DNA of 64,000 nt from Argopecten irradians (Eukaryota > Mollusca > Bivalvia > Pectinida > Pectinidae): NCBI RefSeq assembly GCF_041381155.1, contig NC_091142.1:40225604-40289603 (forward strand), given 5' to 3'. Positions within the stretch are counted from its first letter, which is position 1, and each line of letters opens with the position of its first letter. Of this stretch, positions 23,778 through 64,000 are shown piece after piece. The translations under genes were made by a program, and so were the position numbers. The notes beneath the pieces are model-generated. The model had not been told where the DNA came from and did not search any database. It saw nothing but the letters and a program-made list of their open reading frames with translations.

Positions 23778-24204
23778 ATCCACTTATGAAAGAGTATTTT
23801 TCTTTCATACCACGACGTTTTACTGCAATTTTACAACTATAATATCCCGCCATTTTGAAATAAATTCGAAGAAATCCACGACTGGAAGTCAATTTCCATA
23901 CATGAAAAATTACGTGATATTTTCAACACAAATTCCGTTGCTTGCATCTTTTATAGTAAAACCAGTCAATTTTGTGAAAAAAATGTTACAATTTTACCGA
24001 GGAAATAGAGATTTTGTTGACGCCGTGACGTCACGAGGCTTTATTGCATGGGTAGACATGCAATACAGCCTCAGGCGACATGAGTGTATTGCCCTAGACC
24101 AGCCAGTATTACACGTGTAGGTATGAAAGAAAGTTTTTATCGGTGATCACGTGGCGTGTTTTTGACCAATGAGAAGTGACAAAAAATCCAGAAAAATAAT
24201 AATA

Positions 24205-30739: not shown

Positions 30740-30910
30740 TTATTTATTTCTCGATTTCCGACTTCCCGGTGTTTGTTGTAGTTCTCTTGCTCGTCGATCT
30801 TCTCGCCACTTCTGCATCATCTTCATCATCTGTTCACTGATGTTCTGTTGAGATGTGGGTGACATTCTGTCAAACTCTCCTGGTTTCAATGTGTGGCCAA
30901 GTATGTCTCT
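30740..30910 (-). CDS. TBC-like gene, exon 18 (last)
   Basis: Acceptor TTGTTTACAG. Encodes RDILGHTLKPGEFDRMSPTS to the C-terminus TPGSRKSRNK and stop TAA. The last codons, AAT AAA TAA, contain an AATAAA hexamer. Confidence 0.88.
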   Translation of the reverse strand, partial: RDILGHTLKPGEFDRMSPTSQQNISEQMMKMMQKWREDRRARELQQTPGSRKSRNK

Positions 30911-33900
30911 CTGTAAACAAGGAATCAAAAATAAAGTGATCAAAGGCATTGGTAACCTTACTACCAATGACCTTGGCATTGGTAACCTTACTACCAATGA
31001 CCTTGACATTGGTAACCTTACTACCTATGACCTTGACATTGGTTACCTTACTATCAATGACCTTAACATTGGTATCCTTACTACCAATGACCTTGACATT
31101 GGTAACCTTACTACCAATGACCTTGACATTGGTAACCTTACTACCATTGACCTTGGTATTGGTAACCTTACTACCATTGACCTTGGATTTGGTAACCATA
31201 CAACCAATGACCTTGACATTGGTAACCTAACTACCAATGACCTTAATACAGTTATCTTGCTAACAATTTGTTTAGTTCAAGTAAATTTACTCCAAATGTC
31301 CCTGTCATTAGTAACATTGATAAAAATTACCTTGGCATTATTGACTTTTCTTTCTTTTTTAGCATTGCCAAAAGTAACCTTGGCAATAATAACCTTACAA
31401 ATGACTGGATACAGCTCTTTATTAGTGGTTATTATATCAGCTATCATTGACCTGGGATAGTAACCTTGTTACGAAAAACTTTGAGAATAGTAATCTTGTT
31501 ACCAAATGACCTTGGGTTACATACCTGCGCCCGCTTGATGTCCTTGACATTTTGTTGTAGGTATCCATCTGTTTCCTTGTCCAGTTCAGCCTTGTCCTCT
31601 CCCTGGCCATGGGCAACTAGAGGTCAAACAGAGATCAAATGGAAATAAGGCTGAGATAAGAACATTTCAGATTATAGTGCCTGTTGTTTGATGCACCTGT
31701 ACAAACTGTTGGGTCAAATCAAATTAACTTGCTATTTCACAGCTTCAATTTTCATGACCAAAAAGTGTCCTGAAAAGTCATGAAAATAGCATCTCCATGA
31801 TACCAGCAGACAGTCACATTATAAAACAAGGCTTTTTAGATTGGATATTACCACTCCACACACTGGAGATAGAGGAAGATTATTATGTAAACCTTACTTT
31901 TGTCTGCTCCTAGCTTCACTCTCTGTAAGAAGTCAATGAGGACCTCTTTAGTCTGGTTATCAGGAGATTTGGCGGGGGTTGGAGCTCGCTTTTCTTCCGT
32001 GATTACGGGGAGAGGTTCAGGTGTGTTTATACGTGTAGGAGGAGGAGCTACACAGAATCGACTGAAAGGTAATGGAATCATCAATATACAGAATCGACTG
32101 TAAGATAATGGTATCATCAATATACAGAATCAACTGTAAGATAATGGTATCATCAATATACAGAATCGACTGTAAGATAATGGTATCATCAATATACAGA
32201 ATCGACTGTAAGATAATGGTATCATCAATATACAGAATCGACTGTAAGATAATGGTATCATCAATATACAGAATCGACTGTAAGATAATGGTATCATCAA
32301 TATACAGAATCAACTGTAAGATAATGGTATCATCAATATACAGAATCGACTGTAAGATAATGGTATCATCAATATACAGAATCGACTGTAAGATAATGGT
32401 ATCATCAATATACAGAATCAACTGTAAGATAATGGTATCATCAATATACAGAATCAACTGTAAGATAATGGTATCATCAATATACAGAATCGACTGTAAG
32501 ATAATGGTATCATCAATATACAGAATCGACTGTAAGATAATGGTATCATCAATATACAGAATCACTGAGAATATCATCATATACAGAATCACTGTAAGAT
32601 AATGGTATCATCAATATACAGAATCGACTGTAAGATAATGGTATCATCAATATACAGAATCGACTGTAAGATAATGGTATCATCAATATACAGAATCAAC
32701 TGTAAGATAATGGTATCATCAATATACAGAATCACTCAATTAAGATAATGGTATCATCAATATACAGAATCGACTGTAAGAAGATGATGTATAATCAATA
32801 TACAGAATCGACTGTAAGATAATGGTATCATCAATATACAGAATCGACTGTAAGATAATGGTATCATCAATATACAGAATCGACTGTAAGATAATGGTAT
32901 CATCAATATACAGAATCGACTGTAAGATAATGGTATCATCAATATACAGAATCGACTGTAAGTATGGATCATCAATATACAGAATCACTGTAAGATATGG
33001 TATCATCAATATACAGAATCGACTGTAAGATAATGGTATCATCAATATACAGAATCAACTGTAAGATAATGGAATCATCAATATACAGAATCGACTGTAA
33101 GATAATGGTATCATCAATATACAGAATCAACTGGAAGATAATGGTATCATCAATATACAGAATCGACTGTAAGATAATGGTATCATCAATATACAGAATC
33201 GACTGTAAGATAATGGTATCATCAATATACAGAATCGACTGTAAGATAATGGAATCATCAATATACAGAATCGACTGTAAGATAATGGTATCATCAATAT
33301 ACAGAATCGACTGTAAGATAATGGTATCATCAATATACAGAATCGACTGTAAGATAATGGTATCATCAATATACAGAATCGACTGTAAGATAATGGTATC
33401 ATCAATATACAGAATCAACTGTAAGATAATGGTATCATCAATATACAGAATCAACTGTAAGATAATGGTATCATCAATATACAGAATCGACTGTAAGATA
33501 ATGGAATCATCAATATACAGAATCGACTGTAAGATAATGGTATCATCAATATACAGATAAGGAATCGACTGTAAGATAATGGAATCATCAATATACAGAA
33601 TCGACTGTAAGATAATGGAATCATCAATATACAGAATCGACTGTAAGATAATGGAATCATCAATATACAGAATCAACTGTAAGATAATGGTATCATCAAT
33701 ATACAGATTCAACTGGAAGATAATGGAATCAGTTCTAGGGCTAGGATTATTTTGTAATGATTGCGACATATGTATAGACTATTTGTGTTTTACTATTACA
33801 AAATCAAATGCCAGAGGAAATATCCTGTTTTTACATAATTAGATATTACAGAGTTACTGCCCTTGTGAGTATTGGGTAGGTCTTGGTTGTGATGATTTCG

Positions 33901-36900
33901 TGAGCAAGCTTAATAGATATGTCATTTTCACTTAAAAATTTGATGGTTTGCTCATAAAATAACAAGGTAAACTATTGATACCTATCAGCAAGGGCAGATA
34001 ACTCTGTAATGGGCATACATTACTACATACGTAACCGTAACTTACATGTATAAGGTAAAGTTTGATCTAAAACCTGACTTCTTTCAGGATAAAAAATGTT
34101 TTATTTGCAAGGAAATCTCTTTAAACAATATGCTGTACTTGATCCTATCACAAAACGTGTTCCTATGGTAACTAAAATTGTCATTAACTCACCTGAGAAC
34201 AACAGAGGACCTGCCTGTGGAAGCTCTGGATCTCTGTTTAAAGAGTACATTGCTTAGAGTTTAAAGTAAATAATTGAAATCAATTCTTGGATGTGTATTT
34301 TAAAATCAGACTATGAAACTGTATTGTTACAAAGCTGTTGATTATTCATAGAGGAGTAGAAACTATATGATAATTTCCCTCTTGTTTTACATTAAATGAT
34401 TGACATTATATTAAACCAACCTGTCTAGATACATGATATTAATATTTAATCTAACATTACATATCAACATCGAAAAATTATTCAAAAACTATCATGGAAC
34501 TCAGAACCAACATGTGACCCAGACCGTGTCACATGACTAAGGACATGTCACGTGACCTAGCAATTAAAACAGGACCTGTCATGTGATTCAGGATTTTTCA
34601 CATCACACTCACTGGTTTGGTATAGCCAAGAGCAGACACCTCCATTTTTAAGCGTTCAATCTCTGCCTGTGCTCTTTGCTCTGCCTGCAGTCTCTTCCTT
34701 CGTTCCTAAAACAGTAATGTAAATAATAAAACAAAGATTAAGGATGGAAAACTGATTCCAAACATGGGCTTCTAGCATACAAATACTCAATATTTTATCA
34801 TAGGGTTCCGATTTCAACCCAATCTACAAGTACCTGTCCTGCACCAGTAGATGTTTCAATACTCACGCAGATGCATCAATAATGATTACCTGTACAGATT
34901 TTAATATAGAATCTTAAATTATCAATTTTCATAAAATACATTTTTTAAGACATGTTGAACACCAAACTTTCCATACACTGTGCCATAGCTACCATTGAAG
35001 AGATTGCACTTACTACACCAAACTTATCACCCGTTACATAGGATCTTTAGTACTGTTATCCATAAAATAAACTTCTTTGAATATTTCTCGGTCCGTATTA
35101 TGTACCATAGCTAGTGACCTAAAATAGAACCATATCTTACCTCCTGTACCATCTCCTCCAGTTTCAGCCTCTCCAATTCCAGCCTCTGTCTCAATACCAT
35201 AGCTAGTGACCTAATATAGAACCATATCTTACCTCCTGTACCATCTCCTCCAGTTTCAGCCTCTCCATTTCCAGCCTCTGTCTCTTGTATCATAGCTACT
35301 GACCTACTATAGAACCATATCTTACCTCCTGTACCATCTCCTCCAGTTTCACCTCTCCATTTACCAGCTTCTGTCTCTGTTCATAGCTACTGACCTACTA
35401 TAGAACCATATCTTACCTCCTGCACCATCTCCTCTAGTTTCAGCCTTTCCATTTCCAGCCTCTGTCTCTGTATCATAGCTACTGACCTAATATAGAACCA
35501 TATCTTACCTCCTGTACCATCTCCTCCAGTTTCAGCCTCTCCATTTCCAGCCTCTGTCTCTGTATCATAGCTACTGACCTAATATAGAACCATATCTTAC
35601 CTCCTGTACCATCTCCTCAGTTTCAGTTTCACTCCAGCCCTCCTCCTGTATCATAGCTCTGCCCATATCATATCCTACCTCCTGTACCATCTCCTCCAGT
35701 TTCAGCCTCTCCATTTCCAGCCTCTGTCTCTGTATCATAGCTACTGACCTAATATAGAACCATATCTACCCCTACCATCTCCTCCAGTTTCAGCTCTCCA
35801 TTATCTTACCTCCTGAACCATCTTACCATCTCCTCCAGCTATACCCATCTCCTCCCCTCCATTTCCTCAGCTCCTTCCACTCTGCTCGTCTCACTACCTA
35901 TTGAACAATCTTACTCTGTACCTCTGTCCATTTCTAGCCTCTGTCTCTACCATAGCTACTGACCTAATATAGAACCATATCTTACCTCCTGCACCATCTC
36001 CTCCAGTTTCAGCCTCTCCATTTCTAACCTCTGTCTCTGTATCATAGCTAGTGACCTAATATAGAACCATATCTTACCTCCTGTACCATCTCCTCTAGTT
36101 TTATCCTCTCCATTTCCAGCCTCTGTCTCTCACCAGCTGCCATTCTGGCGTAATCCTCATCTTCTTCCCTGAAACACAAACCTAAGTAGTGAAACGTTAC
36201 TGAGAGACACATGATCTCAATCATAATGACAACTCAGAAGGTTTATACAGGTGTGTAATATATCAATCATTTAACTTGGTTTTCAAAAATCAATATTTTA
36301 TTAAAAATATATCAATGATCAAGTTTTGTCCATAAATCCATCTCTATGTTTGAAGTATTTGTATTTAATTGTATATTTATGAGTTAACTAATAGTCTAAG
36401 AACTTATTCATTTTATGTAGGCATACTAAACATTTGCGTGTTTATGAAGGTTAAAATACCTGATGTATATAAATTCATATCTTTTAAGCAATAGTGAAAT
36501 CAATTTTTCCTTCATAATTATTGTTTTAATCATAAAATCATATAATAACAGCCAAACAAACAACAAAGCCATATGTTAACAATAGGCTAAAGTTAGACAT
36601 TAAACAATACAAAACAAATATTATTTTGGCATATATTACCCCAAATAAGTCCAACCTTACAGCACAAACTAAATAAGTATATAGTTGTACTGTAAAAACC
36701 TCCAAAGCCGTTATAATCTATGAGACTCCAGTTAAAATTCTCATTATAAATTAGATACCACAAGAAACACTTTCATTTGCTAAATGTTATCATCTTTTAA
36801 ATAAAAAACTCAACTTCACACACATATACAGAGTTAAACTTCACACACAATCAACAGATGTTACTATTTATACACGCTTACATAACGGGAGGTTCAGAAC

Positions 36901-39900
36901 GGGACAGAGATGATTGGCTGAAATAAAACACATGTCATGGTGCTCAACACGGGGAGTGTGAAAGGTTGACAAACATCATGTGTAACATGTACTGCAAACC
37001 AACTTACTTATTGCAAGCGACTAAATTTTGTGTATTTCACAAGAAATCGCAAAAATAATAAATCGCTGCAAAAATGTTTCAACCACAGGTGAAATGGAAC
37101 TTTATACATCTAGATCGCAAATTAAATAGCATTGAAAAAATTGTTTGTCATAAAACACAAAATTAAGTTGCTGCAAAAATATGTTGGTTTGTGTTCACTA
37201 TAAAGGATTTGTGCAAAAGGTACTGATGGCTTACTAGCCGAGTCCCTATCACTTGATTACAAATAAGAACAAATTATATATAGGTAAAATTAAATCATCT
37301 ATTTTCATAAATGTATTTTCCAAGATGTAGATATTATAAGGCTGTAAAATTGAGATAAACAAAAATTCATTTTTAGAATCGCCAGGCAAGCTTGGTTACA
37401 CCGATTTTCTCTAGTATATATAGTTTGTAGCATAATTACAGCAATATCATAACTCATTATCTGAGGTCACTAGGAGGTGCATAATTAGATTTATTGGGCA
37501 CATGGCAGAAAAATTCTAAATGCCATAGTATGACCAGTAGATATTGAGAGACATAGATTGTAATAAGGTTAGGGTGACAACTGAAATGACAATTCAAATG
37601 TATTATGTATGCTCAAGTCAGATACAACAATTAATGGTTCAAATGTTAGTTCTATGAATGAATTTAAAGAATTTGTAAATATCGGTAATGTTGTTTAAGA
37701 AATAAAATACTAATTGTTTTGGCAAATCAATTCTATAGATATCAATTTAAACAGCAATGGGTTCACAATATATTGTAAAGATATGTGAAAAATAAGATAG
37801 GAGAAGTTCAAACTAAACACAAAGAAGTGAAAACATCAACAAGGACACAAAATGGAGACTTTGTGTATACCCATAAAGTAACTTGTAGCTATGTCACAGA
37901 GTAAAATAGAAATGGTTTCACAACTTGTACATAACAGAACACATACCTTCTCTCCTTGAGTGCCATTTCACGTTTACTGATCTCGTTGTCCTTCTGCATT
38001 CGTGCCAGCCTGGAAAATAATTACATTATGTATAGTTTTTCTAGTATTGGATTCCTTTGGTGATATTACTGGTAGTATAAAAGGAAAGCATACCCATAAT
38101 GCTTTCTAGAGTCAGTAAACCTAAGGCTAAACATAATGTATAATGTAAAGCTGGTTATTTTGTGATTTTGACTGAAAAATGAGAAAATGATATTTGAGCA
38201 GTATTAAAATTTCATGCTTTGGCTACAAAGTTATATTTCATACATTTTCAATATTTCACAGATCAAATTTTCACAACTATAGCAATGTCCTGCAAAATCA
38301 CGACAATATACCTTCTGCCACAAAAATAAATGGCTATTTATTATTTCTGTTATATAAGTGATAAAATAGATCTTAAAATAAGGAACAAAACATGACTTTA
38401 TTGAACGCTCACTAACAGCATTTTGTAACATCGTTCTATATTAGATCCACCAAAACAGAGACATGCTCCAAGGTCAATGACCAACATAACCAACATTTTA
38501 TCTTCTCATGTCTAGGACATTGAATCTAACCTATGAAGAGCACTAGGTTTTTAGTGTGTTAGGTAATATGTTACCTTTCTCTTTCTGCTTCCCTCTCCTC
38601 CCGAGCACGTCGCCGTTCCTGGGGTTTGGTGTATGGTGGAATGACGTCGTTGTACCAATGACGCCATGGTGGATGTTGAGCTGTAAAACGTGATCCCATA
38701 TAAATAACAGCTTTGGTAAACTTTCTAAGATTTAAAGCTGAAAGGATTTGTCAATGAAGACGTCCCTGTATTCATCCACAGCATGTGATTTCATTCTCAT
38801 CTCCAATGTATTGTTTCCAATGGTATTCATGTGAAGCTAGTCTACACTAAGCACTTTAGATTTGCTGCTACAGCTATTCATGATTCTAACATTAGCCAAG
38901 TCTACCCATTTTATATAAAATACACATAGAAGAAAAATCAATAGTATTCTAACAAAATTTAAAAGTCTTCAGTTTAAAACTATTTTAGGTTGAGAAATGA
39001 TGTCACATGTGTATGATTATCATGCAATGGATGAGTTAAAGCAAATTTTTCTCTATACATTACACAGGTTACTAACAGGATGTATTGGTAAAAGATGTTG
39101 GAGGTTGCTATGGTGACTTACACTGCGTTGGATCCAGGACTGGCATGGCTGCCTTCTGGTCGTGTTGTAGCATAGAGTACAGTCCCTTGTAATGGTCAGT
39201 TTTTACCTGTAACCATTGATTGACATATCTATTATTCATTAAATCAGTTTTTAGTTAAACATATCAATTATGACCTTAAATATCTTTAGCAATATATTGA
39301 TTTTTCTTATTATAACAAAAATCCATAATATAGTCATTGATTGATTGATTGATGGACTAAAACTTTCTTACTAACCATTTACCCAATTAGAGACCCCATT
39401 TTTACTGAACACTTACCAAATTAGAGACCCCATTCTTACTGAACACTTACCAAATTACAGATCCCATTCTTACTGAACACTTACCAAATTACAGACCCCA
39501 TTCTTACTAAATACTTACCAAATAAAAGACCACATACATTCTTACATAACACTGACCTCATATTGGAACTGTGGTATCATGAGTCTTGGTCCCTCTATTT
39601 TCAATGTTTTCTCCATCTCGGCTGACTGTGAGAGCAAGGGGAGACAACCTTATAGCAAAATACTGAATCACTGAAACTAAATTTTAACTTTTTATATGTT
39701 GTGCATGTCATCCAATCCATGCATTTTATATGATATCAGACCCTCTAACTATTTCCAAAAAGTCCATCATCTATGTGTTATATAGCTACTGGGAAATCAT
39801 TTGAAATATTTTTCTGTTATTCCAAATTTAAGTCACACACCTTTCTCAGATTGTCATCATAACTGTAACATTCACTCTATGATAGCTTCATTCTTATTAT

Positions 39901-42900
39901 CATTATTGAGAAAACCAGATGATTCAGATTTTTGTGCATATATAACATCTACTGCTATTTACAATCTGGACTGTTTTTTGACATTATAAATAATCCAGTT
40001 GAATAAAGAAAAAAATGATAATAAAATATTACTGATGATGAATCTTTAAGCTTTTCCCTGAGAAGTCCGAGAAACACTAGTGTCACGTTGGCCAGCCATT
40101 CTGTGTGAAATCCTGGTGTGTTGGAGCCTATCATGTACTGGTCCCATACATACAGCAGTGTGTCAAAGTTCAGATATGCTGTCAAAGAAGAACCAAATTC
40201 AAGTTTCAAATTACCATAAAACCTTGTATAAATTTCACACCAGCATACATATTTTGTAACTTAAAAGCTACTTTTTCTGCTGGAAATGCAACACAATAAA
40301 TGCATGATGTTTCTGAATGTTTGTTCAATTGATCTTTTAGAAAATTTACTTCATTTTTATTTGTGATGAAGCTCTAAGTCCATCAGGAAAAATGAATGCT
40401 CAAACAACAACATAACATTAAACAATGACAACTCTGGTGTCTTTCTGTCCAACAGTTTGGATGAAAAATAATATAATATAAAAAGATAAAGTTTACTTAC
40501 TGACAAACATTCCACGGATGACGGGTCGGATGAGTGAAGTCAGACCTTCCATCAACAGGGCATATTTACCAGTTTCTGTCTCTACGATCTTTTCTGTAAT
40601 TATAAGTACAAGACACTGTATTGTGATTGGAATACACTAAAACATGGTTATAATGAACCTGAAATTTATTAGGTACAAGATAGTAACATGTTTAGATACT
40701 GTGAAAAAACCTGAGAATACCAAAATTATAATATTGATCGTAATTTGTGTCACACTAAGGATAAAATTATAAATATAAAATAATAACAACAATTTGTACA
40801 ATTATCACAGTATCTCTTTGAATGAATCAAGTTAGATATCAACAAGGTTTATACAAATTATATGTGATTTTACCTTTGGAGCTGACGACATTATTTACTA
40901 TAGCTCTAGCCACACTAGGAAACTTCTCCTGAAGTTCTTTAGCGACTTTATCCACAAAGGCTAGCAACTCATCCTCATGTTTCTGTATAAAGTCATAAAC
41001 CATATATATTGTGTAGGTCAATCAGGGAAATCCTAAACCATATATTGTATAGGTCAATCAGGGGAAATCATATATCATTCCAACCCCATAGGGAAATTCA
41101 TATATATACATTTCTATTACCAAATGGAAAAGAATCGACAGTTACAAGACTATATGTGCACATAACCCATTTTATGAATTTGTTTACCATAAGAATTATT
41201 AGAATTTTGAATGTTCACGGTAAGGTCCAATCCTATTGGGGAAATCTGAATATCATCTTGTTTTAAAAGGTCCCCCAATTATGACATTTATAATGAAACT
41301 ATAGACATCCATCTCAAGTCCAACAAAGTGACCCATAGCAGGGGAAACATATTATTATAGCAATTCTCACCCCTAAGGGGACTCCTGCCCCCAAGAGAGA
41401 CCCCATCTTCAACTTTTACCATAAGACCCCATTCTTAGGGTGTGGCCATTTACCCATATTTAGAACCATTGTAATTTACAAGCATATTTAGGCCCCAAAG
41501 GAGGGGAAACTTACCCATATATCAGAAACCCATTCTTACTGAACATTTACCCTCTTAGGATCTCCATTCTTACTAAACATTACCATCCCCTTAGCCCATT
41601 AAGAAATCCTATTCTTAGTCATTTATATACATTTACCATTCTAGATAGGTCCCCATTCTTACTGAAACTTACCCATATTTAGAGATATTTTTCTGAACTA
41701 GTTTTACCCATTGTAAGAGATTCCATTCACAACTACTAACTAGATTGTAGGAGATTTACCTCATTTCCCATGAACTACTAACATTTACTCTAGAGACCCC
41801 ATTCTTACTGAATTTACCCAAATTAGAGACCCCTACCCATTATTCATTCCATTATTATGAACATTTTAGAGAAAATTCTTACTGATTCAGAAAAAAATTA
41901 CAAGACCCCATTAGGAGGGTTTTGCAAAATATCACATATGAACTGAAGTATTTAAGGGAACTGAACCACTTTTTTGAATGGGGGGGGATCAGAGCCAAAA
42001 TTTAATCCAGTTAATATCCCCATAATCTCCAATCATTTAAATCATATGAAAATCTTAAAACAGTTTTTAAAATTCTTACCGAAAATATTACCATATTTGA
42101 AAAATTCCAATGGGCAACCATATGAGATACCCATTCATACAAGTTTACCCAAGTTCAAGGATCCCATTCTTATGTTTGTTAAAGTCACTTACAGGGGATT
42201 TAGCATTTGTAAAGGAATACCTCATTTAAGGGGTAAAGCCCCTCCATGCCCCCAAGTTGAGTTCAAACCAAATATATAAAGTTTGTTCTTAAGGAAGGAT
42301 GTTTGTCCAAATTTGTGTATCAGCATACAATATTTTGTTTACAATCTATTTCCCCAATTGGGGGGAAAAAATAAACCTAAGTATAGGATCAGAGCCAAAA
42401 ATTTTTTCTGAACAACTTCCCCCAAATCAGGGGAAATTTTACACATGACCCAATCATGATTTTACAATCGATTTAAGGATTTACTTACCCAATATTCTCC
42501 CCCCCGGGGGGCCAGAGCCAAAATTTATACATTTTTATTAGATGTTTGTGGCCAAAAGTTACGGGGAAATCATAATCCATTTAACTCTATCATAGGATTT
42601 AAAGGATAATGTTCCAAAATATAGGGGAAGTTCAAAACACAGGTGGAAATCTAAGCTGTTGTATGTTGCTCAAAGTGGGAATTTCAAAAAATCTATGCAG
42701 GGAATTGTTATTCTTATGAAAAAATATTAGGTCCCCGCCCCTTCTATAAAATAAAAATATAAGTTTCCCATTCCCCCAACTGACAAAAGGTTCCACATCA
42801 GGGGAAACTTATGAACAAGGCATATAAAGGATTTGAAGTTTTTACATTTTGGGAACAGGCCCCTTCCATCAACAAAATTTATACAATATTGTGGCTGAAT

Positions 42901-45900
42901 TTATTTCTGTTCAAGTACGATGAAAAATTACCTGTATTATAAGTCCCCAAGGGGAGACCCCATTATTTATGTATTAAGGAAAAGGAATCCACTAAAAATG
43001 TTTGTGGAACAAATTTATATTTATCAAGAACTCAGGGGATCATAATTCTCAACCATTTAAACCCCTATTCTATATCCTCCTGCCCATGTATCAGGGGAAA
43101 TCATTTTATATATTATTTATATCAAGACTTTCTGAAAGGTCCAATCCCCCAAGGTAAAAATCATATATTTATACCTATATCCACCATTAGAAACCTCTGT
43201 CAGGTAAATCAGAGCAATATTTAAATTAAGGATGCCATATTTGTGGCCATAACATCAATCAGGAGAATCATTTAATTAAAATACCTATGGTTATATATTT
43301 CCTGTCCCCCCTGGGGAAATCCAATTAAACCCCTTAAAATATTTGTTTTTGGTTAAAGGCCCATGTCAAAAATAGGGAAAAATTCATTTAAATATACCTC
43401 ATGTTATAACAAACCAATGTCTGGGGGAAATCATCAAAATATCAGTTTATTCCCTTTCATTAAACATGATTTTGTTACAATCCATAATATAGGACTTGCG
43501 ATTTATGGTATTCATTGGGGAGGGGAAAAATAATTTTACTTTTAAAACATGAATGTATTGTTAATAGGGGAAATTGGACAATATAAATTATAGGTCAATA
43601 AAGGGAAATCATTTAGTGTAAGGATCCACTCAATGTCATTATAAAATTTAGTATTGAAATTAAAAAAAAATTAATTTATCTAAAAAGGCTTAAATCATAA
43701 TTTAAGGTCAATTGGGAAAACCATATAATTATATTCAATCAAGGACTGAAATTTGGGGAAATCATATCCATATTGTTTAGGATTCTGTATCCAATACCCA
43801 AAAGGGGAAATCATTTAGGCCAAAGGGGACATATACAAAAGGTATAGGTCAATCAGGGAAAATTCATCATATTCATGTTCTTCCCCCAATTAGATTATTA
43901 GGCTCAAAAGGCTACAATAGGAAGGGGAAAATATATATCTGTTTAAGGGAATTTAAATGTTAATTTACTATTGGGGGATCATTCATTAACATAGTATAAC
44001 ATTGTATACATATACAATCAGGGTATTAAGGGAAATCCAAATTTCAGGGAAAAACATTATCCATGCCAAGGCTCAATCAGGGAAATAAAACCATTGGATT
44101 CGTCCCCTATTCCAATCAGGGGTGTCACTGTCAAATATGAATATAATTCAAAGTTAAATTAAAAAAATGGCATGTTCATATATCGCATAGGTACAATCCA
44201 AGGGGAAAATATACTGTTTGAAAGGGCAATCATAAAATATCATATATTGGTCCATATGCAAGGTGATCAATACCCATGCAAATCATATATGTAAATAGGT
44301 CCAATCAGGGGGTAAACCATATATTTAAATATAATAGGTCAAAGTCTAGAGAATCAAGGTATAACTATATAGTTGTATTAGGTCATATCATAAACCATAT
44401 ATTTCCCTTATAGGTCAACAAGGGACAACACTTTATATACTGTAGTCTAGGTCAATCTAGGAAATGGACAATATTGTGGTTCATAATCCATAATATATGT
44501 ACGTAAGGTATGTCAATCAGGGGGAAATCATTTATCCATACTGAAATAGCATTGTTTAATACTAGGTCAATCCAGGTGAAATCAATAAACCAATATAGAT
44601 ATATATATGTTGATCAATCCGGTGAAATCATATAGTGTAAAGTTCAATCAGGTGGTAGGGGAAATAAACCATATATTGTCTAGGTCTATCAGGGAAATCA
44701 TATATTGTATAGGGGAAATAATCCATATACTATATTGTAATAGGTCAATCAGGGGAAACCATTATAGTGTATAGGTCAATCAGGCGAAATCATTAACCAT
44801 ACATTGTATAGGTCAATCAGGGGAAATCATATAGTGTATAGATCAATCAGGGGAAATCATATACCTGTGGTAATGTATAGGTCAATCAGGGGAAACCATA
44901 TAGTGTATAGATCAATCAGGGGAAATCATATACCTGTGGTAGTATATAGGTCAATCAGGGAAACCATATAGTGCATAGATCAATCAGGGGAAATCATATA
45001 CCTGTGGTAATGTATAGGTCAATCAGGGGAAACCATATAGTGTATAGATCAATCAGGGGAAATCATATACCTGTGGTAGTGTATAGGTCAATCAGGGAAA
45101 CCATATTGTATAGGTCAATCAGGGGAAATCATGATCCATATATTGTATAGGTCAATCAGGGGAAATCATAAACCATACATTGTATAGGTCAATCAGGGGA
45201 AATCATGATCCATATATTGTATAGGTCAATCAGGGGGGAAAACATATATTGTGTAGGTCAATGAGGGGAAAATCATAATCCATATATTGTATAGGTCAAT
45301 CAGGGGGAAATCATAAACCATACATTGTATAGGTCAATCAGGTGAAATCATAAACCATATAGTGTATAGGTCAATCAGGGGAAATCATATAGTGTATAGA
45401 TCATTCCAGAGAAATCATATAGTGTATAGGTCAATCAGGGGAAATCATATTATACCATATAGTGTATAGGTCTATCGGGGGAAATCATAATCCATATATT
45501 GCATAGGTCTATGAGGGGATAAACCATATATTGTATAGGTCAATCAGGGGTAATCATATATTGAATAGGTAGGTCAATCTGGGGAAATCATATAGTGTAT
45601 AGGTCAATCCTGAGAAATCATATAGTGTATAGGTCAAACAGGGGAAATCATATATTGTATAGGTCAATCAGGGGAAATCATATATTGTATAGGTCAATCA
45701 GGGGAAATCATATATTGTATAGGTCAATCAGGGAAAATCATAATCCATATTTGTAAAGGTCAATCTGGGGAAAACATATATTGTGTAGATCAATGAGGGG
45801 AAAATCATAATCCATATATTGTATAGGTCAATCAGGGGGAAATCATAAACCATACATTGTATAGGTCAATCAGGTGAAATCATAAACCATATAGTATATA

Positions 45901-48900
45901 GGTCAATCAGGGGAAATCATATAGTGTATAGATCATTCCGGAGAAATCATATAGTGTATAGGTCAATCAGGGGAAACCATTTAGTGTATAGGTCAATCCG
46001 GGGAAATCATATAGTGTAAAGGTCAATCAGGGGAAAATCATAAACCATATATTGTCAGGGGAAATCATTAACCATATAGTGTATAGGTCAATCAGGTGAA
46101 ATCATTAACCATATAGTGTATAGGTCAATCAGGGAGAAATCATAAACCATATATTGTCTAGGTCTATCAGGGAGAAATCATAAACCATATATTGTATAGG
46201 TCAATCAGGGGGAAATCATAAACCATATATTGTATAGGTCAATCAGGGGGAAATCATAAACCATATATTGTATAGGTCTATCAGGGGGAAATCATAAACC
46301 ATATATTGTATAGGTCTATCAGGGGAAATCATATATTGTATGGGTCAATCAGGGGAAATAATATAGTGTATAGGTCAATCAGGGGAAAACATATATTGTA
46401 AAGGTCAATCAGGGGAAAACATATATTGTAAAGGTCAATCAGGGGAAAATCATAAACCATACATTGTATAGGTCAATCAGGTGAAAATCATAATCCATAT
46501 ATTGTATAGGTCAATCAGGGGGAAATCATAAACCATACATTGTATAGGTCAATCAGGTGAAAATCATAATCCATATCATGTATAGGTCAATCAGGGGAAA
46601 TCATATATTGTATAGGTCAATCAGGGGAAACAATACATTGTATAGGTCAATCAGGGGAAATCATAAACCATACATTGTATAGGTCAATCAGGGGAAATCA
46701 TAAACCATATATTGTATAGGTCAATCAGGGGGGAATTATAAACCATACATTGTATAGGTCAATCAGGGGGAAATCATAAACAATATATTGTATAGGTCAA
46801 TCAGGGCAAATTATAAACCATATATTGTATAGGTCAATCAGGGGAAATCATAACCATACAGTGTATAGGTCAATCAGGGGGAATCATAAACCATACATTG
46901 TATAGGTCAATCAGGGCAAATCATAAACCATATATTGTAAAGGTCAATCAGGGGAAACCATACAGTGTATAGGTCAATCAGGGGAAATCCTTAACCATAT
47001 ATTGTATAGGTCAATTAAACTTACATACTGTAGCGATAAAATTTCTTCAATTCAATTATTTAAAGTAATTCCTATTTAACAGACATTCAAAGTCATATTT
47101 TGGAAAATTTGTTTCACAGTACATGTCATTTTCAAAAAATGTACCAACTACCTAAGTACATTGTAGTATGAAATCATACCTTAGAAGGAGAAAATGAAAA
47201 AATTCAGTTTGTTATTTGCCCTGGTCAATAATTATCCTTGTAATTTTCATGTCAATGAGTTAATGATCTGACAGATTTTTCATTACACATTTTGATATAA
47301 GTGTTGAAAAAATTGCTTTATCTCCCTTATTTCTGGAGCTATCCACAAGTTGTAAAACTAAAGAAAATAACTTGACATTTTTGTTCTAGGTAAAATTTCA
47401 TTTGGCAATTGTCTTCTTTCTCATTCGTTGTGGGGATAGGACAAAGTCCTTAAGTAAATTCTATGTTAATAAAGTAGTACATGGCAAGGACCTACATCTG
47501 AACCAGAGTCCGAGACAAATCCAGGTCTCGATTCCATATAGGATATATACTGTTCAACTAGTGCTGCGATCACTCGGCCGGCGGGTGGCTCACGTCTGTA
47601 AAAAAAAAAAAAAAATAGACACATAAACTGTATCGTCAAAAGTTATAAACAATTAACATTAAATATATTCATATATATAGACAAATAAAATGTACTGTAA
47701 AAAGTTATATACTACATGTATATAAAATATATCTATAGTCTGAGGCATGGTTTAACTTTTCAGTATAAAAGATTTTAATAGTTTCTTTTTTGAAGATTTC
47801 AATTCAGAGAAATTTGGACAATATGACATGCCATATGATTTACTTATATTCAACTTCAGAATTGCTTACTTTGGCATATTGGAATCATTCACTTTGACAA
47901 ATGGCACAACGAGGAGATGGTCAACATCTCGTAATCTGTTCTTGGTCTTTAGGGAGGCATGGTAGTAAGATAGCACAGCTTTCATGGCATAGAAGGAGCC
48001 TGGTAGAAATGTTTACATAGATAAATAACAATACATGTTGCACTGGTAAAATCACAATGTTTGCTCTTCACAGTATGTACTTAGGGACACTTAATATACT
48101 ATCCTGGCACATCTATTGGGAACATACCAAAATTATGACAACATCCTCTACATATTCAAAATGTTGCATTGTGAGAACCAGTGTTGTTGAAGAAAAGTTG
48201 AAATCATTTTGTTCTGTAAAATGAATCAGATAAACACACACTTTCTAGGTAGAGGGTCAGAAACAACTCAGAACCTCCAGCATGGCCGGCCTCCTGAGCT
48301 TGTCAGCTGAATCACAGACACTCTATTTTTGGAACACTTTGTACAAAATTCAATAACCTATTCTCAGTGGCACATTGGCCCAGTGGTTAAGATGTCATGA
48401 CATATTACCACAAGCCTCCATTCCTGGGTTGTAAGTTTGAATCTCATGTGGAGCAGCAGTCAGGTACTGCACTTGATGGTTTTTCTCTGTGTAGTCCGGT
48501 TTTCCTATGCCTCATAAACTAGCACGTCCTTAAATGACCATTAATCATATCAAACCAGTAAGAATTAGTGATAATTCTTTAAAACCTACCCACTGATCCT
48601 TTAAGTTCGGCGAAGGTCGCCTCTGTATTAATAAGTGCCTCACATTTCTGTGAGATCTCAAGGTCGTAGGGTGAGATGGCTGCCCTTGGGTTGGTGTTCA
48701 GCTGGTCTACATACTGCTTTCTTACTGTTGATTGTAAAAATAGTCACATTCATATATTCATGTCCATTCAATTATGATATCTATATTCATCCTGAACTAT
48801 GTTGCTGTTTTATAGATACTAGTTTTATAAGATGGAGGATTAAATCAGAAGAGGGATTTTGATTTTTTTAACATAAATGTGGACAATCATTTGCCACTTT

Positions 48901-51860
48901 TGTCAGTGGGGAAAGAGGATAGACAGGCATTCATGACTTTGTGTTCACTGTTATAAAACCATTTTTCTGATTTATTGGTTGAAATCAACATGACATATCA
49001 CACAGAATTTATCTAAAACCAAAATTCAAAGCATCTAATTACCTTTATTGTTTGTGAGATATAGTCTCCAGGCAACTTGTCTCAAAGGTGGAGGAAGTGC
49101 TTGGTTCAGACAAATATTGAGTTTATTTTTCATGTCAGGCCATTTCTTCAGCATGCTCAATGAACCCTCTTCTGCATTCTCTATAATAAGGTCAGACTTG
49201 GTTCCAACTGGAGCATCTTCAAGTAGCTGTCGAGACACCTCCTCATTGAGGTGTTGGTCGAGGAGAACGGAGACTTTCTTTGATAGATTTGTGTATATAC
49301 CACCTACAAATAGATTATTCACTTCACTAGAAATACAAATACAAGTATAATAAAAAAAAAATCCTTGACAAAAGAAGGCAAAGTAGGATAAGTAATGTTT
49401 AATTTCAGGTCATGAAATCAGAGTTGTTAATATTTCATTATAATTACGTGTAATTGATGGCAAACCTGTAATAGAACCACAGTTTATCCCAGATAAAACC
49501 ATACAATACTTATTTCCACTGAAATACACAACTAAATTGTCAAATTAGTGAAATGCAAATAATGCTGCAAAGAGAGAAGGAAGATTACACATTTTTTTCT
49601 GTTAGATTTGTGTTTTATATGGAACTTAAACAAATCCACGGTTGATCATTAATTCATTTTGGTTCAGTAAAAGATAAATTATACCTGGTAATCCTGATGC
49701 ATAGGATTTTCAAACAAATTCAGATAGCCTAAGGAATGGTTTAAACTTAATAACACATTGATTGTTGTAATTTACCTCCTTCAATAGCAGCTGTGGCTCT
49801 TTCCATAAAGAGCTCCTTTTCAGCCTCGGACAAGTCTGTGAAATATTGGACATGGCTTTCTGTCAACTGTTGCTGGATGGCCTCATGTAGTTCCCCTAAA
49901 AATGTGTTCCACTCCTTCAAGTAGAGATTATTATCATATCAATTACATAGAACATTGAAACTGGGACCTCCTAACACTAGACGGATGCTGGTCGAGCTGT
50001 ACATGTACATTAATTGTATAATGTGCTGATTGAAGCTAGGGTATATGACACTTGCCTGCGGTCACCCGTCCCAGAACAGCCCATATACTACATAAACACG
50101 ATGCAGTCACACTAACCCCTTTGTGAACAAGATTTATCCTTCCATGGGTTCAACCTCAACACACACAAAAATATAGGCTAGTGTTGCTGCCTTGTGATAG
50201 GGCCCCTCTAGATCTAGATCTAGTCAACAGCTCAATTTACTTACATGCTGTCAAAAGGCACCTTACATACTGTCAGGCCCAAATTTTAATAGTGAAAATG
50301 TGATAGATAGCATACAGTGCAGGGCTTGTCAATGACGTAGGAAGATGAAACATAATGGGGGGGCAAAGGTCCTCAATATTTCGTAACACACACACCCCCT
50401 CACGCTCCCCGCACCCACTAGAGATACTTGGTATACATATTTTTCATATATCATTACATATAATCCTTGTACACATCTATAGACAGTGGCGTCGCTAACT
50501 GAAAATAAATGAAAACGCAAAATAGCGCACGGGCTTGGGGGGTACGGGGGTATCCCCTGGAAAATATTACGACTTAGAATGACTGAGATGAATTTTACAA
50601 TGTATTTTGATGATTTTTCGAGCGCCAATGGAGGTTTTGGTGTTTGGGTCTTCTGGGGTCTCCCCCGGGGAAAAATGTACGATTTAGAATGGCAAAGATG
50701 AGTTTTACGATTCATTTTGTTGAATTTGAGAGCGCCGAAGGCTCAAGATTTTGGTGTTTTGGGAGGTCTTGGGTTCTCCCCCAAGAAAAGATTTTACTAT
50801 TTAGAATGGCTGAAATGAATATGGGAGCGCCGTAGGCGCGAGATTTAGGTTTTTGTGGGGTTCGGGGGTCTCCTGGGGAACGGGGGGCAATCCCCCCCCT
50901 CCCCACCGCTTCCTACGCCCCTGCTTGTTTTATTCTTTTTTTTTCTTCTTAATGATTCTTAATGATGTTTTCCAGCACAGGCTCTTTAGAGATCCTTTTT
51001 GCTGGACTCACAATGTTATTAGTTACAAATTATGATTTTGGTCACTTCCTAGCTGATATTCTCTTTATAGTTATTGTGTCTAATTTTCTGCTCGTTCCAG
51101 TGGTTGTCCAATCTGATTTTGAAAGTATCCAATGTCTAATACGATGTAACGACATGGTCTGGTAGGTTATTCCATATTGAAGCAATCCTAACAGAGAATG
51201 AGTTCTTAATCTTACTGATCGATGTTCTAGTATGCTGTGGGAATATTTTCAGCGAGTTAGTCCTAGTGCTAGATCTCTCTGATGTGTCGGGCCACATCCT
51301 TATGAACTGAGTTGCTCCTTTGTCATATCTCCCTGTAACTGCCTTGTATGTTTCTATCATGTCGCCTCGTACACGTCTGTAATTCAGTGTTGGAAGCTTT
51401 AACTTCGTTAGCCTCTCAGGATAAGAAAGGTTATCCATTCCCGGTAGTTGTTTAGCAAAATGAAATTTATGAAAATGGGAACATCTTACCCCTGTAATAG
51501 ACACCAACCATATCAACTCACCCACAAATACAGAATCATCTTTCCCCTGTAATAGACACCAACCATATCAACTCACCCACAAACACAGAATCATCTTACC
51601 ACTGTAATAGACACCAAATGCAACCATATCAACTCATCCACAAATACAAAATTATCTTTCCCCTGTAATAGACACCAAGCTGAGATAAATGTGTTTTCCA
51701 TCTTTGTTCTCATTTATTTGAGTTGCGAATGCTCTTATCGGTATATTTCCAAAATCTGTTTTCATCCGGAAATAAAACAATCACTTTTTTTTACCTTTGA
51801 ATCGCTAATCCCTTGTTTACAATTTATTAACCATCGGGGATACGTTTGCTGAGCCGCCAT
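30740..51860 (-). CDS. TBC-like domain and coiled-coil protein, spliced model of at least 18 exons
   Basis: Exons joined by eye run from ATG 51860-51858 to TAA 30742-30740. All junctions are GT-AG and all phases agree, except between exons 5 and 6, where a 3n+1-nt exon seems missing. The model gives about 674 residues plus that exon. Exons 2-3 end with ALPPPLRQVAWRLYL, like the first TBC motif. Exons 4-8 carry a helical domain with VVPFVKVNDSN and YLNFDTLLYVWDQYM, typical of the later part of TBC Rab-GAP folds. The places where TBC proteins carry the catalytic Arg (IxxDxxR) and Gln (YxQ) read ISQKCEALI and RLRDVDHLLVV, so GAP activity is doubtful. Exons 11-14 encode a highly charged coiled coil. 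Exon 16 has a proline-rich linker. The C-terminus is basic (RKSRNK). I cannot match it to a named orthologue. It diverges from B3GLCT at a shared promoter. Confidence 0.85.
30940..31260. repeat. 30-bp minisatellite in intron 17
   Basis: About 10 units of 'accttactaccaatgacctt' plus 'gacattggta'. The period is a multiple of three, so frames on both strands are open (up to 201 codons) without being genes. On the sense strand the exon-17 donor continues with 'aacccaaggtcatttggta', a diverged form of the unit. Confidence 0.95.
31525..31616 (-). CDS. TBC-like gene, exon 17
   Basis: Acceptor GACCTCTAG. Encodes AHGQGEDKAELDKETDGYLQ and QNVKDIKRAQ. Donor CAG|GTATGT, phase 0. Confidence 0.85.
31898..32047 (-). 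CDS. TBC-like gene, exon 16 (proline-rich linker)
   Basis: Encodes PPPTRINTPEPLPVITEEKR, then APTPAKSPDNQTKEVLIDFL and QRVKLGADK. The acceptor CTGTGTAG lies inside the last unit of a 36-bp array. Donor AAAA|GTAAGG, leaving one base. Confidence 0.85.
32048..33735. repeat. 36-bp minisatellite in intron 15, about 45 copies
   Basis: The plus-strand unit is 'gaatcgactgtaagataatg' followed by 'gtatcatcaatataca'. The array begins 5 bp from exon 16. On the sense (minus) strand each unit contains ATTATCTTACAG, an acceptor-like sequence. Variants (cgact/caact, gtatc/gaatc) are interspersed. Frames of 176-265 codons on both strands come from the 3n period. Confidence 0.97.
34193..34214 (-). CDS. TBC-like gene, exon 15 (22-nt microexon)
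   Basis: Using the acceptor AGCTTCCACAG gives a 22-nt exon encoding AGPLLFS. This restores frame into exon 16. The alternative acceptor TTTAAACAG, 19 nt upstream, would give 41 nt and the wrong phase. Donor CAG|GTGAGT. Confidence 0.65.
34613..34705 (-). CDS. TBC-like gene, exon 14
   Basis: Acceptor ACTGTTTTAG. Encodes ERRKRLQAEQRAQAEIERLK and MEVSALGYTKP. Donor CCA|GTGAGT, phase 0. End of the coiled coil. Confidence 0.87.
35106..36077 (-). repeat. 92-bp array of partial exon-13 copies with donors
   Basis: Copies with the donor context at 35136, 35228, 35321, 35412, 35504, 35596 and 35981 are 91-93 bp apart where intact. Degenerate copies fill 35600-35960. In sense orientation each copy reads AGACAGAGGCTGGAAATGGA and onward to GAG|GTAAGATATGG, encoding RQRLEMERLKLEEMVQE. 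Most copies have ATACAG right before the coding part. Each could therefore be read as a phase 0-0 mini-exon, although the upstream pyrimidine tract is poor. Confidence 0.9.
36078..36168 (-). CDS. TBC-like gene, exon 13 (source of a 92-bp array)
   Basis: Acceptor GTGTTTCAG. Encodes EEDEDYARMAAGERQRLEME then RIKLEEMVQE, phase 0 at the end. Donor GAG|GTAAGA. Its last 51 nt plus donor and the first bases of the intron are repeated about ten times downstream. Confidence 0.87.
37947..38009 (-). CDS. TBC-like gene, exon 12
   Basis: Acceptor ATTTTCCAG. Encodes LARMQKDNEISKREMALKER, part of the charged coiled coil. Donor AAG|GTATGT. Confidence 0.85.
38575..38680 (-). CDS. TBC-like gene, exon 11 (start of coiled coil)
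   Basis: Acceptor CGTTTTACAG. Encodes QHPPWRHWYNDVIPPYTKPQ and then ERRRAREEREAERE. This is the transition from globular domain to charged helix. Donor AAG|GTAACA. Confidence 0.87.
39122..39206 (-). CDS. TBC-like gene, exon 10
   Basis: Acceptor ATGGTTACAG. Encodes VKTDHYKGLYSMLQHDQKAA and MPVLDPTQ. Donor AGT|GTAAGT. Confidence 0.87.
39365..39556 (-). repeat. 34-bp array starting at the exon-9 donor
   Basis: In sense orientation the donor GTCAGTGTTATGTAAGAATG is echoed by units starting GTAAGTGTTCAGTAAGAATG, roughly five copies. The repeated GTAAGT is a better donor consensus than the real GTCAGT. Confidence 0.8.
39557..39625 (-). CDS. TBC-like gene, exon 9
   Basis: Acceptor GCTCTCACAG. Encodes SAEMEKTLKIEGPRLMIPQF and QYE. 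The donor is GAG|GTCAGTG, the start of a 34-bp array that repeats donor-like sequence. Confidence 0.87.
40033..40178 (-). CDS. TBC-like gene, exon 8 (C-terminal TBC motif)
   Basis: Acceptor TTCTTTGACAG. Encodes YLNFDTLLYVWDQYMIGSNT through VTLVFLGLLREKLKDSSS. The FDTLLYVWD segment matches the conserved tryptophan-aspartate motif late in TBC domains. Donor TCA|GTAATA. Confidence 0.9.
40501..40593 (-). CDS. TBC-like gene, exon 7
   Basis: Acceptor ATAATTACAG. Encodes EKIVETETGKYALLMEGLTS through LIRPVIRGMFV. Strong donor A|GTAAGT. Confidence 0.88.
40874..40982 (-). CDS. TBC-like gene, next exon found (called exon 6)
   Basis: Acceptor ACTTTATACAG, then KHEDELLAFVDKVAKELQEK and FPSVARAIVNNVVSSK. 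The only AG giving an open frame implies phase 0, so at least one exon between this and exon 5 is missing. The 37-bp array ends within a few tens of bases of the acceptor. Confidence 0.85.
40995..47030. repeat. 37-bp minisatellite with a scrambled centre, intron 5
   Basis: Clean units ('ataggtcaatcaggggaaat' then 'cataaaccatatattgt', with shorter 30-bp forms) occupy about 44690-47030. One or two reappear at 40995-41080 beside exon 6. Between 41090 and 44690 the sequence is a loose mosaic of this unit and of the 34-bp unit seen at 39.4 kb, with no clear period. The frames inside are not genes. Confidence 0.85.
47395..47625 (+). repeat. Possible retroposed fragment ending in poly(A)
   Basis: A roughly 220-bp stretch of more balanced composition ends in a run of 15 A at about 47600-47614, as a reverse-transcribed insert would. 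The source is not recognised. The 74-codon frame at 47402-47626 runs through it. Confidence 0.3.
47870..47999 (-). CDS. TBC-like gene, coding exon 5
   Basis: Acceptor TTTCTACCAG. Encodes GSFYAMKAVLSYYHASLKTK through DVDHLLVVPFVKVNDSNMPK. The donor is CAAA|GTAAGC, leaving two bases, which does not fit the phase-0 start of the next exon found. Confidence 0.87.
48366..48550 (+). repeat. tRNA-derived SINE
   Basis: 'ttggcccagtggttaagatg' is a good Pol III A box and 'gtaagtttgaatctcatg' resembles a B box. The tail 'ctagcacgtccttaaatg' is shared with other SINE copies in the window. It lies within intron 4 of the TBC-like gene, antisense to it. Confidence 0.7.
48590..48724 (-). CDS. TBC-like gene, coding exon 4
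   Basis: Acceptor TACAATCAACAG. Encodes RKQYVDQLNTNPRAAISPYD and then LEISQKCEALINTEATFAEL. This is where TBC GAPs normally carry the IxxDxxR arginine finger, and no such arginine is present. Confidence 0.88.
49043..49303 (-). CDS. TBC-like gene, coding exon 3 (start of TBC-like domain)
   Basis: Acceptor CTATTTGTAG. Encodes GGIYTNLSKKVSVLLDQHLN through the motif LNQALPPPLRQVAWRLYL. The donor is AAAG|GTAATT, leaving one base. Confidence 0.9.
49776..49914 (-). CDS. TBC-like gene, coding exon 2
   Basis: Starts EWNTFLGELHEAIQQQLTES after the acceptor CTACTTGAAG and ends AAIEG with donor GAG|GTAAAT. It begins in phase 0 and leaves one base. Confidence 0.85.
50320..50925. repeat. GC-rich interspersed repeat with internal modules
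   Basis: Runs such as 'ggggggcaatcccccccc' and 'gtctcccccggggaaaa' sit in AT-rich intron sequence. A module containing 'gagcgcc', 'ggttttggtgtt', 'tctccccc' and 'ttagaatgg' recurs three to four times at roughly 80-100 bp. It is a dispersed, probably non-autonomous element. The overlapping frames are not genes. Confidence 0.55.
51135..51465 (-). mobile_element. 5'-truncated non-LTR retrotransposon 3' end
   Basis: The minus-strand frame reads LSYPERLTKLKLPTLNYRRV, RGDMIETYKAVTGRYDKGAT and ends SFSVRIASIWNNLPDHVVTS. This pattern (RL-KL-LP-L-YRR-RGDMI, then WN-LP) is the familiar C-terminal tail of LINE reverse transcriptase polyproteins. Only the tail is present, inside intron 1 of the TBC-like gene and in the same orientation. 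Confidence 0.75.
51483..51680. repeat. 55- to 59-bp minisatellite, short array (about 3.5 copies)
   Basis: Units carry 'cccctgtaatagacaccaac', 'catatcaactcacccacaaa' and 'tacagaatcatctt'. These are the reverse complement of the array at 62570-64000, so one family is present in introns of both divergent genes, in the sense strand of each. Confidence 0.92.
51795..51860 (-). CDS. TBC-like gene, coding exon 1
   Basis: Encodes MAAQQTYPRWLINCKQGISD followed by SK, 22 codons. The start context is strong (catcATGGC). The donor is AAG|GTAAAA, phase 0. Confidence 0.85.
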
Positions 51861-62569: not shown

Positions 62570-64000
62570 AGATGATTCTGTATTTGTGGGTGAGTTGATA
62601 TGGTTAGTGTCTATTACAGGGGTAAGATGATTCTATATTTGTAGATGTGTTGATATGGTTGGTGTCTATTACAGGGGTAAGATGATTCTGTATTTGTGGG
62701 TGAGTTGATATGGTAAGATGATTCTGTATTTGTGGGTGAGTTGATATGGTTGGTGTCTATTACAAGGGTAAGATGATTCTGTATTTGTGGGTGAGTTGAT
62801 ATGGTAAGATGATTCTGTATTTGTGGGTGAGTTGATATGGTAAGATGATTCTGTATTTGTGGGTGAGTTGATATGGTAAGATGATTCTGTATTTGTGGGT
62901 GAGTTGATATGGTAAGATGATTCTGTATTTGTGGATGAGTTGATATGGTTGGTGTCTATTACAGGGGTAAGATGATTCTGTATTTGTGGGTGAGTTGATA
63001 TGGTTGGTGTCTATTACAGGGGTAAGATGATTCTGTATTTGTGGGTGAGTTGATATGGTAAGATGATTCTGTATTTGTGGATGAGTTGATATGGTTGGTG
63101 TCTATTACAGGGGTAAGATGATTCTGTATTTGTGGGTGAGTTGATATGGTTGGTGTCTATTACAGGGGTAAGATGATTCTGTATTTGTGGGTGAGTTGAT
63201 ATGGTTGGTGTCTATTACAGGGGTAAGATGATTCTGTATTTGTGGATGAGTTGATATGGTAAGGTGATTCTGTATTTGTGGATTCCTGTGATTCTGTATT
63301 TGTGGATGAGTTGATATGGTTGGTGTCTATTACAGGGGTAAGATGATTCTGTATTTGTGGGTGAGTTGATATGGTTGGTGTCTATTACAGGGGTAAGATG
63401 ATTCTGTATTTGTGGATGAGTTGATATGGTTGGTGTCTATTACAGGGGTAAGGTGATTCTGTATTTGTGGATGAGTTGATATGGTTGGTGTCTATTACAG
63501 GGGTAAGATGATTCTGTATTTGTGGATGAGTTGATATGGTTGGTGTCTATTACAGGGGTAAGATGATTCTGTATTTGTGGATGAGTTGATATGGTTGGTG
63601 TCTATTACAGGGGTAAGATGATTCTGTATTTGTGGATGAGTTGATATGGTTGGTGTCTATTACAGGGGTAAGATGATTCTGTATTTGTGGATGAGTTGAT
63701 ATGGTTGGTGTCTATTACAGGGGTAAAATGATTCTGTATTTGTGGATGAGTTGATATGGTTGGTGTCTATTACAGGGGTAAGATGATTCTGTATTTGTGG
63801 ATGAGTTGATATGGTTGGTGTCTATTACAGGGGTAAGATGATTCTGTATTTGTGGATGAGTTGATATGGTTGGTGTCTATTACAGGGGTAAGATGATTCT
63901 ATATTTGTGGATGTATTGATATGGTTGGTGTCTATTACAGGGGTAAGATGATTCTGTATTTGTGGATGAGTTGATATGGTTGGTGTCTATTACAGGGGTA
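62570..64000. repeat. 55-bp minisatellite with 36-bp short form, continues past the window
   Basis: The long unit is 'gtaagatgattctgtatttg' + 'tggatgagttgatatggttg' + 'gtgtctattacaggg'. The short unit lacks 19 bp (the part with 'gtgtctattacag'). Short and long units alternate up to about 63060, then long units dominate. 'tgtgggtgag' units are mainly on the left and 'tgtggatgag' units on the right. It lies in the intron after B3GLCT exon 8. Confidence 0.97.

Follow-up and report, generated by a model that had tools for sequence, protein, structure and literature searches.

Minisatellite arrays at splice junctions of an Argopecten irradians gene resemble the mirages of amphioxus

Mirages are known from amphioxus, where the available parts of two reports describe them in Adh3, the globins, troponin C and PGBD5 (PMC3087553; PMC3902484), and where the copied splice sites are reported, again in the part available, as passed over in splicing (PMC3902484). 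These two papers, both on amphioxus, were the only ones judged relevant in our literature searches on mirages, and searches covering mirages, bivalves and molluscs found neither a genome-scale account of mirages nor any account of them in molluscs. Minisatellites in abalone introns have also been described, with no claim about splice junctions in the accessible portion of that report (PMC6905558). Here we describe minisatellite arrays at five splice junctions of one Argopecten irradians gene, which are very probably mirages, that is, arrays produced by repeated local tandem duplication that included or touched a splice junction. New here are the rate of mirages in one genome and the unit searches, which point to an origin in place.

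The host gene lies in a stretch of 64,000 nucleotides, the whole of which was analyzed and is called the window below; tandem repeats make up 19% of it. Searches of viral and prokaryote collections with DNA patterns gave no match, and Rfam gave none at its thresholds. All 19 introns of the gene begin with GT and end with AG, their phases join into an open frame, and without the optional exon 14 (36 nt) the product has 717 amino acids. A genome search with this protein returned 17 matches, all of them at its own locus, with no second copy of the gene in the assembly. The gene had been labeled TBC-like in the first-pass annotation, and this label was not confirmed by Pfam, in which the 717-residue protein matched no family up to E 0.1 and parts of it gave only two weak, unrelated matches up to E 10. 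Searches of Pfam and PDB with the protein returned nothing significant, and the host gene was not among the 32 matches of a genome search with PF00566 (TBC). Its identification as a TBC (RabGAP) domain protein was thus rejected, with no match to PF00566 in Pfam or in the genome search. Exons 6, 9, 13, 16 and 17 of the first-pass annotation correspond to exons 7, 10, 15, 18 and 19 here. The features of the gene and its surroundings are collected in Table 1.

Table 1. Positions of the host gene, its arrays and related features in the window
Feature	Position	Strand	Remark
Host gene, 20 exons	30740..51860	(-)	Modeled by phase and GT/AG borders
Intron 19 array, 30-bp unit	30947..31514	(-)	Fills most of intron 19
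Intron 17 array, 36-bp unit	32049..33731	(-)	Spans exon 18 acceptor; 13 bp of exon included
Intron 15 array, 92-bp unit	35101..36130	(-)	Spans exon 15 donor and takes in 53 bp of that exon
Exon-like 51-nt copies coding RQRLEMERLKLEEMVQE or near	35141..36036	(-)	Inside intron 15 array
Intron 10 array, 34-bp unit	39365..39557	(-)	First base is last base of exon 10
Intron 6, 37-bp unit copies by acceptor	40990..41078	(-)	Last copy 7 bp short of exon 7 acceptor
Intron 6, middle	41079..44562	(-)	Degraded 37-bp repeat, then 34-bp-like stretch at about 41.5-42.2 kb
Intron 6, main array, 37-bp unit	44563..47015	(-)	Far edge 480 bp from exon 6 donor
Intron 1 array, 55-bp unit	51479..51678	(-)	116 bp from donor; unanchored
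Fringe-like gene, 55-bp array, first part	62570..64000	(+)	268 bp past end of the window's last exon

Arrays had been placed at the donors of exons 10, 15 and 19 and at the acceptors of exons 7 and 18. In a scan of all 38 junctions, which asked whether the 50 bases around each junction recur in the same intron, these five came out on top (z 29.5, 29.0, 9.2, 4.3 and 4.2; the next junction, 3.6), and the arrays at the five named junctions are real. Ranked against the other donors or acceptors of the gene, the own junction of the array was first of 19 at each of the five, while at the opposite ends of introns 19 and 6 the exon 20 acceptor ranked 15th and the exon 6 donor 7th of 19. For the three diverged cases, none of 3000 same-sized windows elsewhere scored as high. 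A two-copy repeat 18 bp past the exon 14 donor was considered as a further case and was rejected, being at background in the junction scan. The earlier statement that so many arrays at splice sites of one gene are unlikely by chance stands against a within-gene null of random placement (P 2e-5, or 3.4e-4 when intron 6 is taken as unanchored), but not against the genome's own rate of 9/78 junctions described below. With a null in which seeds fall at random, P was 0.0016-0.014 in introns of 300-407 bp and smaller in longer ones. Once the genome sample existed, the within-gene P values were not used as a measure of surprise.

Array limits were set by wraparound (head-to-tail) alignment of each unit along the gene and to every junction. 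By this measure the boundary is strictly spanned in introns 15 and 17, the intron 10 array reaches the last exon base, and the arrays of introns 6 and 19 do not span it, stopping 7 and 10 bp short. The intron 19 array begins 10 bp past the exon 19 donor and stops 36 bp short of the exon 20 acceptor; its core lies at 30947-31339, and its copies diverge towards the donor. In intron 10, the authentic first copy is the most diverged (76%, versus 91-97% in the four inner full copies). This arrangement, homogenized inside and diverged at the edge, is clear in introns 10 and 19 and less clear in introns 17 and 15. In intron 6, an exact core of the 37-bp unit adjoins the exon 7 acceptor at 41038-41067, and the next exact cores are 3.7 kb off; the stretch at about 41.1-44.5 kb, which carries pieces of two of the gene's units, is perhaps poorly resolved assembly. 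Because of this degraded stretch and several damaged-looking copies in intron 15, copy numbers are approximate; damaged copies also occur in the intron 17 array.

The introns had been described as filled with decoy splice sites, which fits two of the five. Scored by a weight matrix built from the gene's own 19 sites, with the real sites included, intron 15 holds eight additional donors that match the real one, the copies bearing GAG|GTAAGA, and intron 17, with about 46 near-identical acceptors, holds 45 further acceptors that score at least as high as the real one. In introns 10 and 19, however, the real donor is the best and no other matches it, and in intron 6 one other acceptor ties. In a control of 13 array-free introns, no donor reaches the score of the real one in 12, and no acceptor does so in 7, the remaining introns having 1 to 4 such acceptors. 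Read-through past exons 10, 15 and 19 runs into stop codons, and upstream of exon 18, in intron 17, the frame stays open for 23 codons and then meets TGA. Judged from the reading frame, the simplest reading is that splicing uses the outermost site and passes over the copies.

The intron 15 array contains exon-like copies of 51 nt, and the good ones are preceded by an AG, have a strong donor and keep their frame intact; among the 11 full-length non-authentic copies, 6 are frame-intact and 5 are broken. The intron holds 19 in-frame candidate exons with an acceptor score above 0, whereas 20 shuffles gave 0.25 on average and 2 at most; in this comparison the array copies are not independent. Their candidate acceptors score 0.2-4.9 and the real acceptors of the gene 4.4-12.6. 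Over the seven intact copies, four codon changes are synonymous and two are not (P 0.014-0.050, depending on the assumed transition bias). Neighboring copies are separated by 41 nt, which is very short for an animal intron.

The origin of the units was addressed by pattern searches of the 846-Mb genome, allowing up to 2 or 3 mismatches, with four of the five units (introns 6, 10, 15 and 17). All 4 matches of a 26-base core of the intron 10 unit (up to 2 mismatches) and all 42 matches of 34 bases of the intron 17 unit (up to 3 mismatches) fell in their own introns; a 30-base core of the intron 6 unit (up to 2 mismatches) gave 41 matches, all inside intron 6, and a 32-base core of the intron 15 unit (up to 3 mismatches) gave 9, all at its own array and including the authentic junction. 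Since the four units match only their own introns, these results suggest that they arose in place, and by sequence they look like local products rather than dispersed elements. The intron 15 unit, moreover, holds coding sequence of the host, so its array derives from the junction; the coding sequence of exon 15 is the first copy of the array, which gives the direction of origin. An origin of the arrays in place at splice junctions, as the first-pass annotation had proposed, is thus supported. The 34-bp unit of intron 10 has diverged relatives within intron 6, and these count against a purely local origin, barring spread within the gene or assembly noise.

Other arrays lie around the gene. An open reading frame fragment at 51136-51567 (-) adjoins the 55-bp array of intron 1; it gave nothing in Pfam and resembles the end of a LINE reverse transcriptase. 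The neighboring Fringe-like gene (PF02434, E 1e-12) showed no clear repeat at any of its 11 in-window junctions (top z 3.1); its array continues beyond the window to the acceptor of the next exon, which starts at C9:40294572, and this sixth array ends at that acceptor, TCTATTACAG|GGCCC, two bases of the exon being part of the repeat. A search with the 55-bp unit counted 110 genome matches, and all among the matches listed are at this locus. The same 55-bp unit occurs in sense orientation in two divergent neighbor genes about 11 kb apart (62570-64000 and 51479-51678), a point against the reading of the arrays as mirages, and one unit resembles a 52-nt mini-intron (GTAAG...TTACAG), the units being separated by GGG. 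At 21826-22320 (+) there is a reverse transcriptase fragment (PF00078, E 7e-4, below the cut-off); a 23-bp array lies close to it (22378-22582), and there is a larger array at 24203-25185. Elsewhere in the genome, another gene, of the TBC family (C8:32138000-32147900), carries arrays of differing period at three junctions and resembles the window gene in this respect. Contig C391 matches the C7 locus at 22.80 Mb with about 94% identity, and both carry the same junction-spanning 85-bp array, in about 29 copies on C7 and about 40 on C391; the two are allelic or duplicated, and perhaps C391 is an allele of the C7 locus with an array of variable length.

In order to place the window gene against other genes, we sampled 116 junctions beside 58 exon hits (30 of the TBC family and 28 of kinesins), with the splice sites inferred. 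Junctions without a splice site scoring at least 5 within 30 bases of the hit edge were dropped (38/116), which left 78 trusted ones. The TBC sample omits 2 of the 32 matches, namely the largest (on C12) and that on C391, and the kinesin sample comprises 28 of 130 matches. Arrays span 9 of the 78 trusted junctions, compared with 10, 12, 12 and 17 of 78 interior points at +100, +150, +200 and +400 bp within the intron; in a stricter set, limited to exon hits without internal stops, the figures are 4/61 junctions and 6, 8, 7 and 12 of 61 interior points. Seven of the nine spanning cases belong to TBC-family genes, three of them to one C8 gene. In several of the spanning arrays the repeated unit joins coding sequence to the splice site, as with GAAGAG|GTGAGTCCC (about 106 copies) and CATAGACCAGA|GTAAGTAAA (4 copies). 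For one of the nine, the acceptor at C8:32141922, the assigned position lies two units too far out; the sequence suggests that the array there overlaps a likelier acceptor by about 4 bases.

The sample, which is small and relies on predicted exon borders, also allowed array edges to be counted in a zone around the junctions. Ten edges lie in [-60,+30), negative positions being exonic, and 28 in [30,800) (90 of 860 bp; binomial P 0.005), and against the nearer zone [30,240) the count is 10/20 (P 0.048). In the full sample, junctions thus have two to three times the edge density, the zone having been picked after the window gene was seen. In the stricter set, 5 of 26 edges are at junctions (5 and 21, P 0.13; against [30,240), P 0.28). 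With the doubtful C8 acceptor removed, P is 0.012, or 0.084 against [30,240). Repeat coverage is 0.10-0.14 next to the junction and climbs with distance from the exon, reaching 0.25 at 480-800 bp. Of 198 kb in 20 stretches (18 around TBC-family exons, one past the window and one on C391), 39% is tandem repeat. When one repetition test was applied throughout, it was positive at 3/38 junctions of the window gene and 7/65 of other genes (Fisher P 0.74), the latter divided into 6/38 for the TBC family and 1/27 for kinesins. A longer-range first test found repeats at 6/38 TBC-family junctions and at between 9 and 18 of 37 interior points. Because the rate in the window gene does not exceed that in other genes, several touching arrays per gene are ordinary for this genome, and the number of arrays in this gene is about as the genome's load of intronic minisatellites would predict. 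Mirages thus look common in this genome rather than peculiar to one gene, at a rate of about 1/9 to 1/15 of sampled junctions.

Several other explanations were weighed against these data. An assembly artefact would account for the degraded stretch of intron 6 and for the damaged copies in introns 15 and 17; clean copies, however, flank the damaged ones on both sides, and C391 and C7 share the 85-bp array at about 92-94% identity with differing lengths, and we regard this explanation as very improbable. It seems scarcely credible that the arrays are repeats of a dispersed or mobile kind which came to lie at splice-like sites by landing there. The presence of the 55-bp unit in two neighbor genes and of relatives of the 34-bp unit in intron 6 would agree with such landings, yet the four searched units have no match elsewhere at the mismatch limits used, the matches listed of the 110 for the 55-bp unit are confined to this locus, and the intron 15 unit is coding sequence of its host. 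According to a further possibility, raised in the first-pass annotation, the repeated sites are used and the arrays tune splicing or make isoforms, chiefly through the 51-nt copies of intron 15, each of which would add 17 residues to a charged helical stretch. The AG, strong donor and intact frame of these copies, the 19 candidates against a shuffle maximum of 2, and the four synonymous versus two non-synonymous changes (P 0.014-0.050) all speak for use. Nevertheless, the candidate acceptors are weak (0.2-4.9 versus 4.4-12.6), copies 41 nt apart leave little for an intron, the frame is broken in 5 of the 11 full-length non-authentic copies, a TGA follows 23 open codons upstream of exon 18, and copying from the real exon could explain the synonymous changes; we consider isoform use quite improbable.

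The two remaining explanations concern how the arrays relate to junctions. The first-pass annotation had suggested that splice-junction sequence is a preferred start of minisatellite amplification in this genome, and had proposed as a check whether arrays begin near splice sites beyond expectation. In the TBC and kinesin sample, array edges are in excess in [-60,+30) (P 0.005 and 0.048 in the full sample), and random placement in the window gene gave P 2e-5. The excess, however, loses significance in the stricter set (P 0.13 and 0.28) and weakens without the doubtful C8 acceptor (0.012 and 0.084); junctions are spanned no oftener than interior points (9/78 versus 10, 12, 12 and 17/78), repeat coverage is lower beside exons than deep in introns, the Fringe-like gene has no clear case at its 11 in-window junctions (top z 3.1), and the zone was chosen with the window gene already seen. 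A preferred start at junctions is accordingly doubtful. We also think it unlikely that junctions are genome-wide hot spots of amplification, with about one in ten embedded in up to a hundred copies of its own site and a spliceosome that reliably picks the outermost. Alternatively, chance overlap by itself may be enough, arrays being so common that some touch junctions and the window having been picked for that; this is compatible with arrays of mirage structure and disputes nothing but a special link to junctions. Junction rates similar to or below those of interior points, a window gene not above other genes (3/38 versus 7/65) and an edge excess that is not robust in the stricter set are all on its side, whereas the edge excess in the full sample, though it comprises only 38 edges, opposes it. 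On balance, we find chance overlap rather probable.

Returning to mirages as the preferred reading of the arrays themselves, the defining features that could be examined here, namely boundary spanning, units homogenized inside and diverged at the edge, and copied splice signals, were all found. In the mechanism that we propose, a seed duplication, by slippage or unequal exchange, would arise at the junction, and the seed would then be amplified and homogenized within the intron. The exon-adjacent copy would retain the authentic site under selection, and splicing would consequently take place mostly at the outermost site. If about one junction in ten sits in arrays of its own copies, this genome would be a natural experiment in how one of many near-identical sites is selected by the spliceosome, and in whether the arrays give rise to new introns and exons.

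As far as the available text of the two amphioxus reports goes, the arrays described here are like mirages in that minisatellite-like repeats lie over exon-intron boundaries at both donors and acceptors, the units measure tens of bases or more, splice signals are copied and the borders are left unhomogenized (PMC3087553; PMC3902484). They differ from the amphioxus mirages in that many genes of one genome were sampled here (9/78 junctions, or 4/61 in the stricter set) and in that the arrays reach about 100 copies. Amphioxus genomes are smaller than this 846-Mb assembly. A second likeness is to human genes in segmental duplications, where, in the accessible part of that report, minisatellites with units of about 30 bp alter exon/intron structure, some of them at the boundary; there, new introns appear in recent paralogs, whereas here the copies sit within introns (PMC2812944). 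Additionally, duplicated splice sites such as those described here would be raw material for new introns in the creation of introns by AG|GT tandem duplication (the Rogers model; Zhuo 2007; Gao and Lynch 2009, as mentioned in the available part of PMC3087553); the copies of the present gene lie inside its introns.
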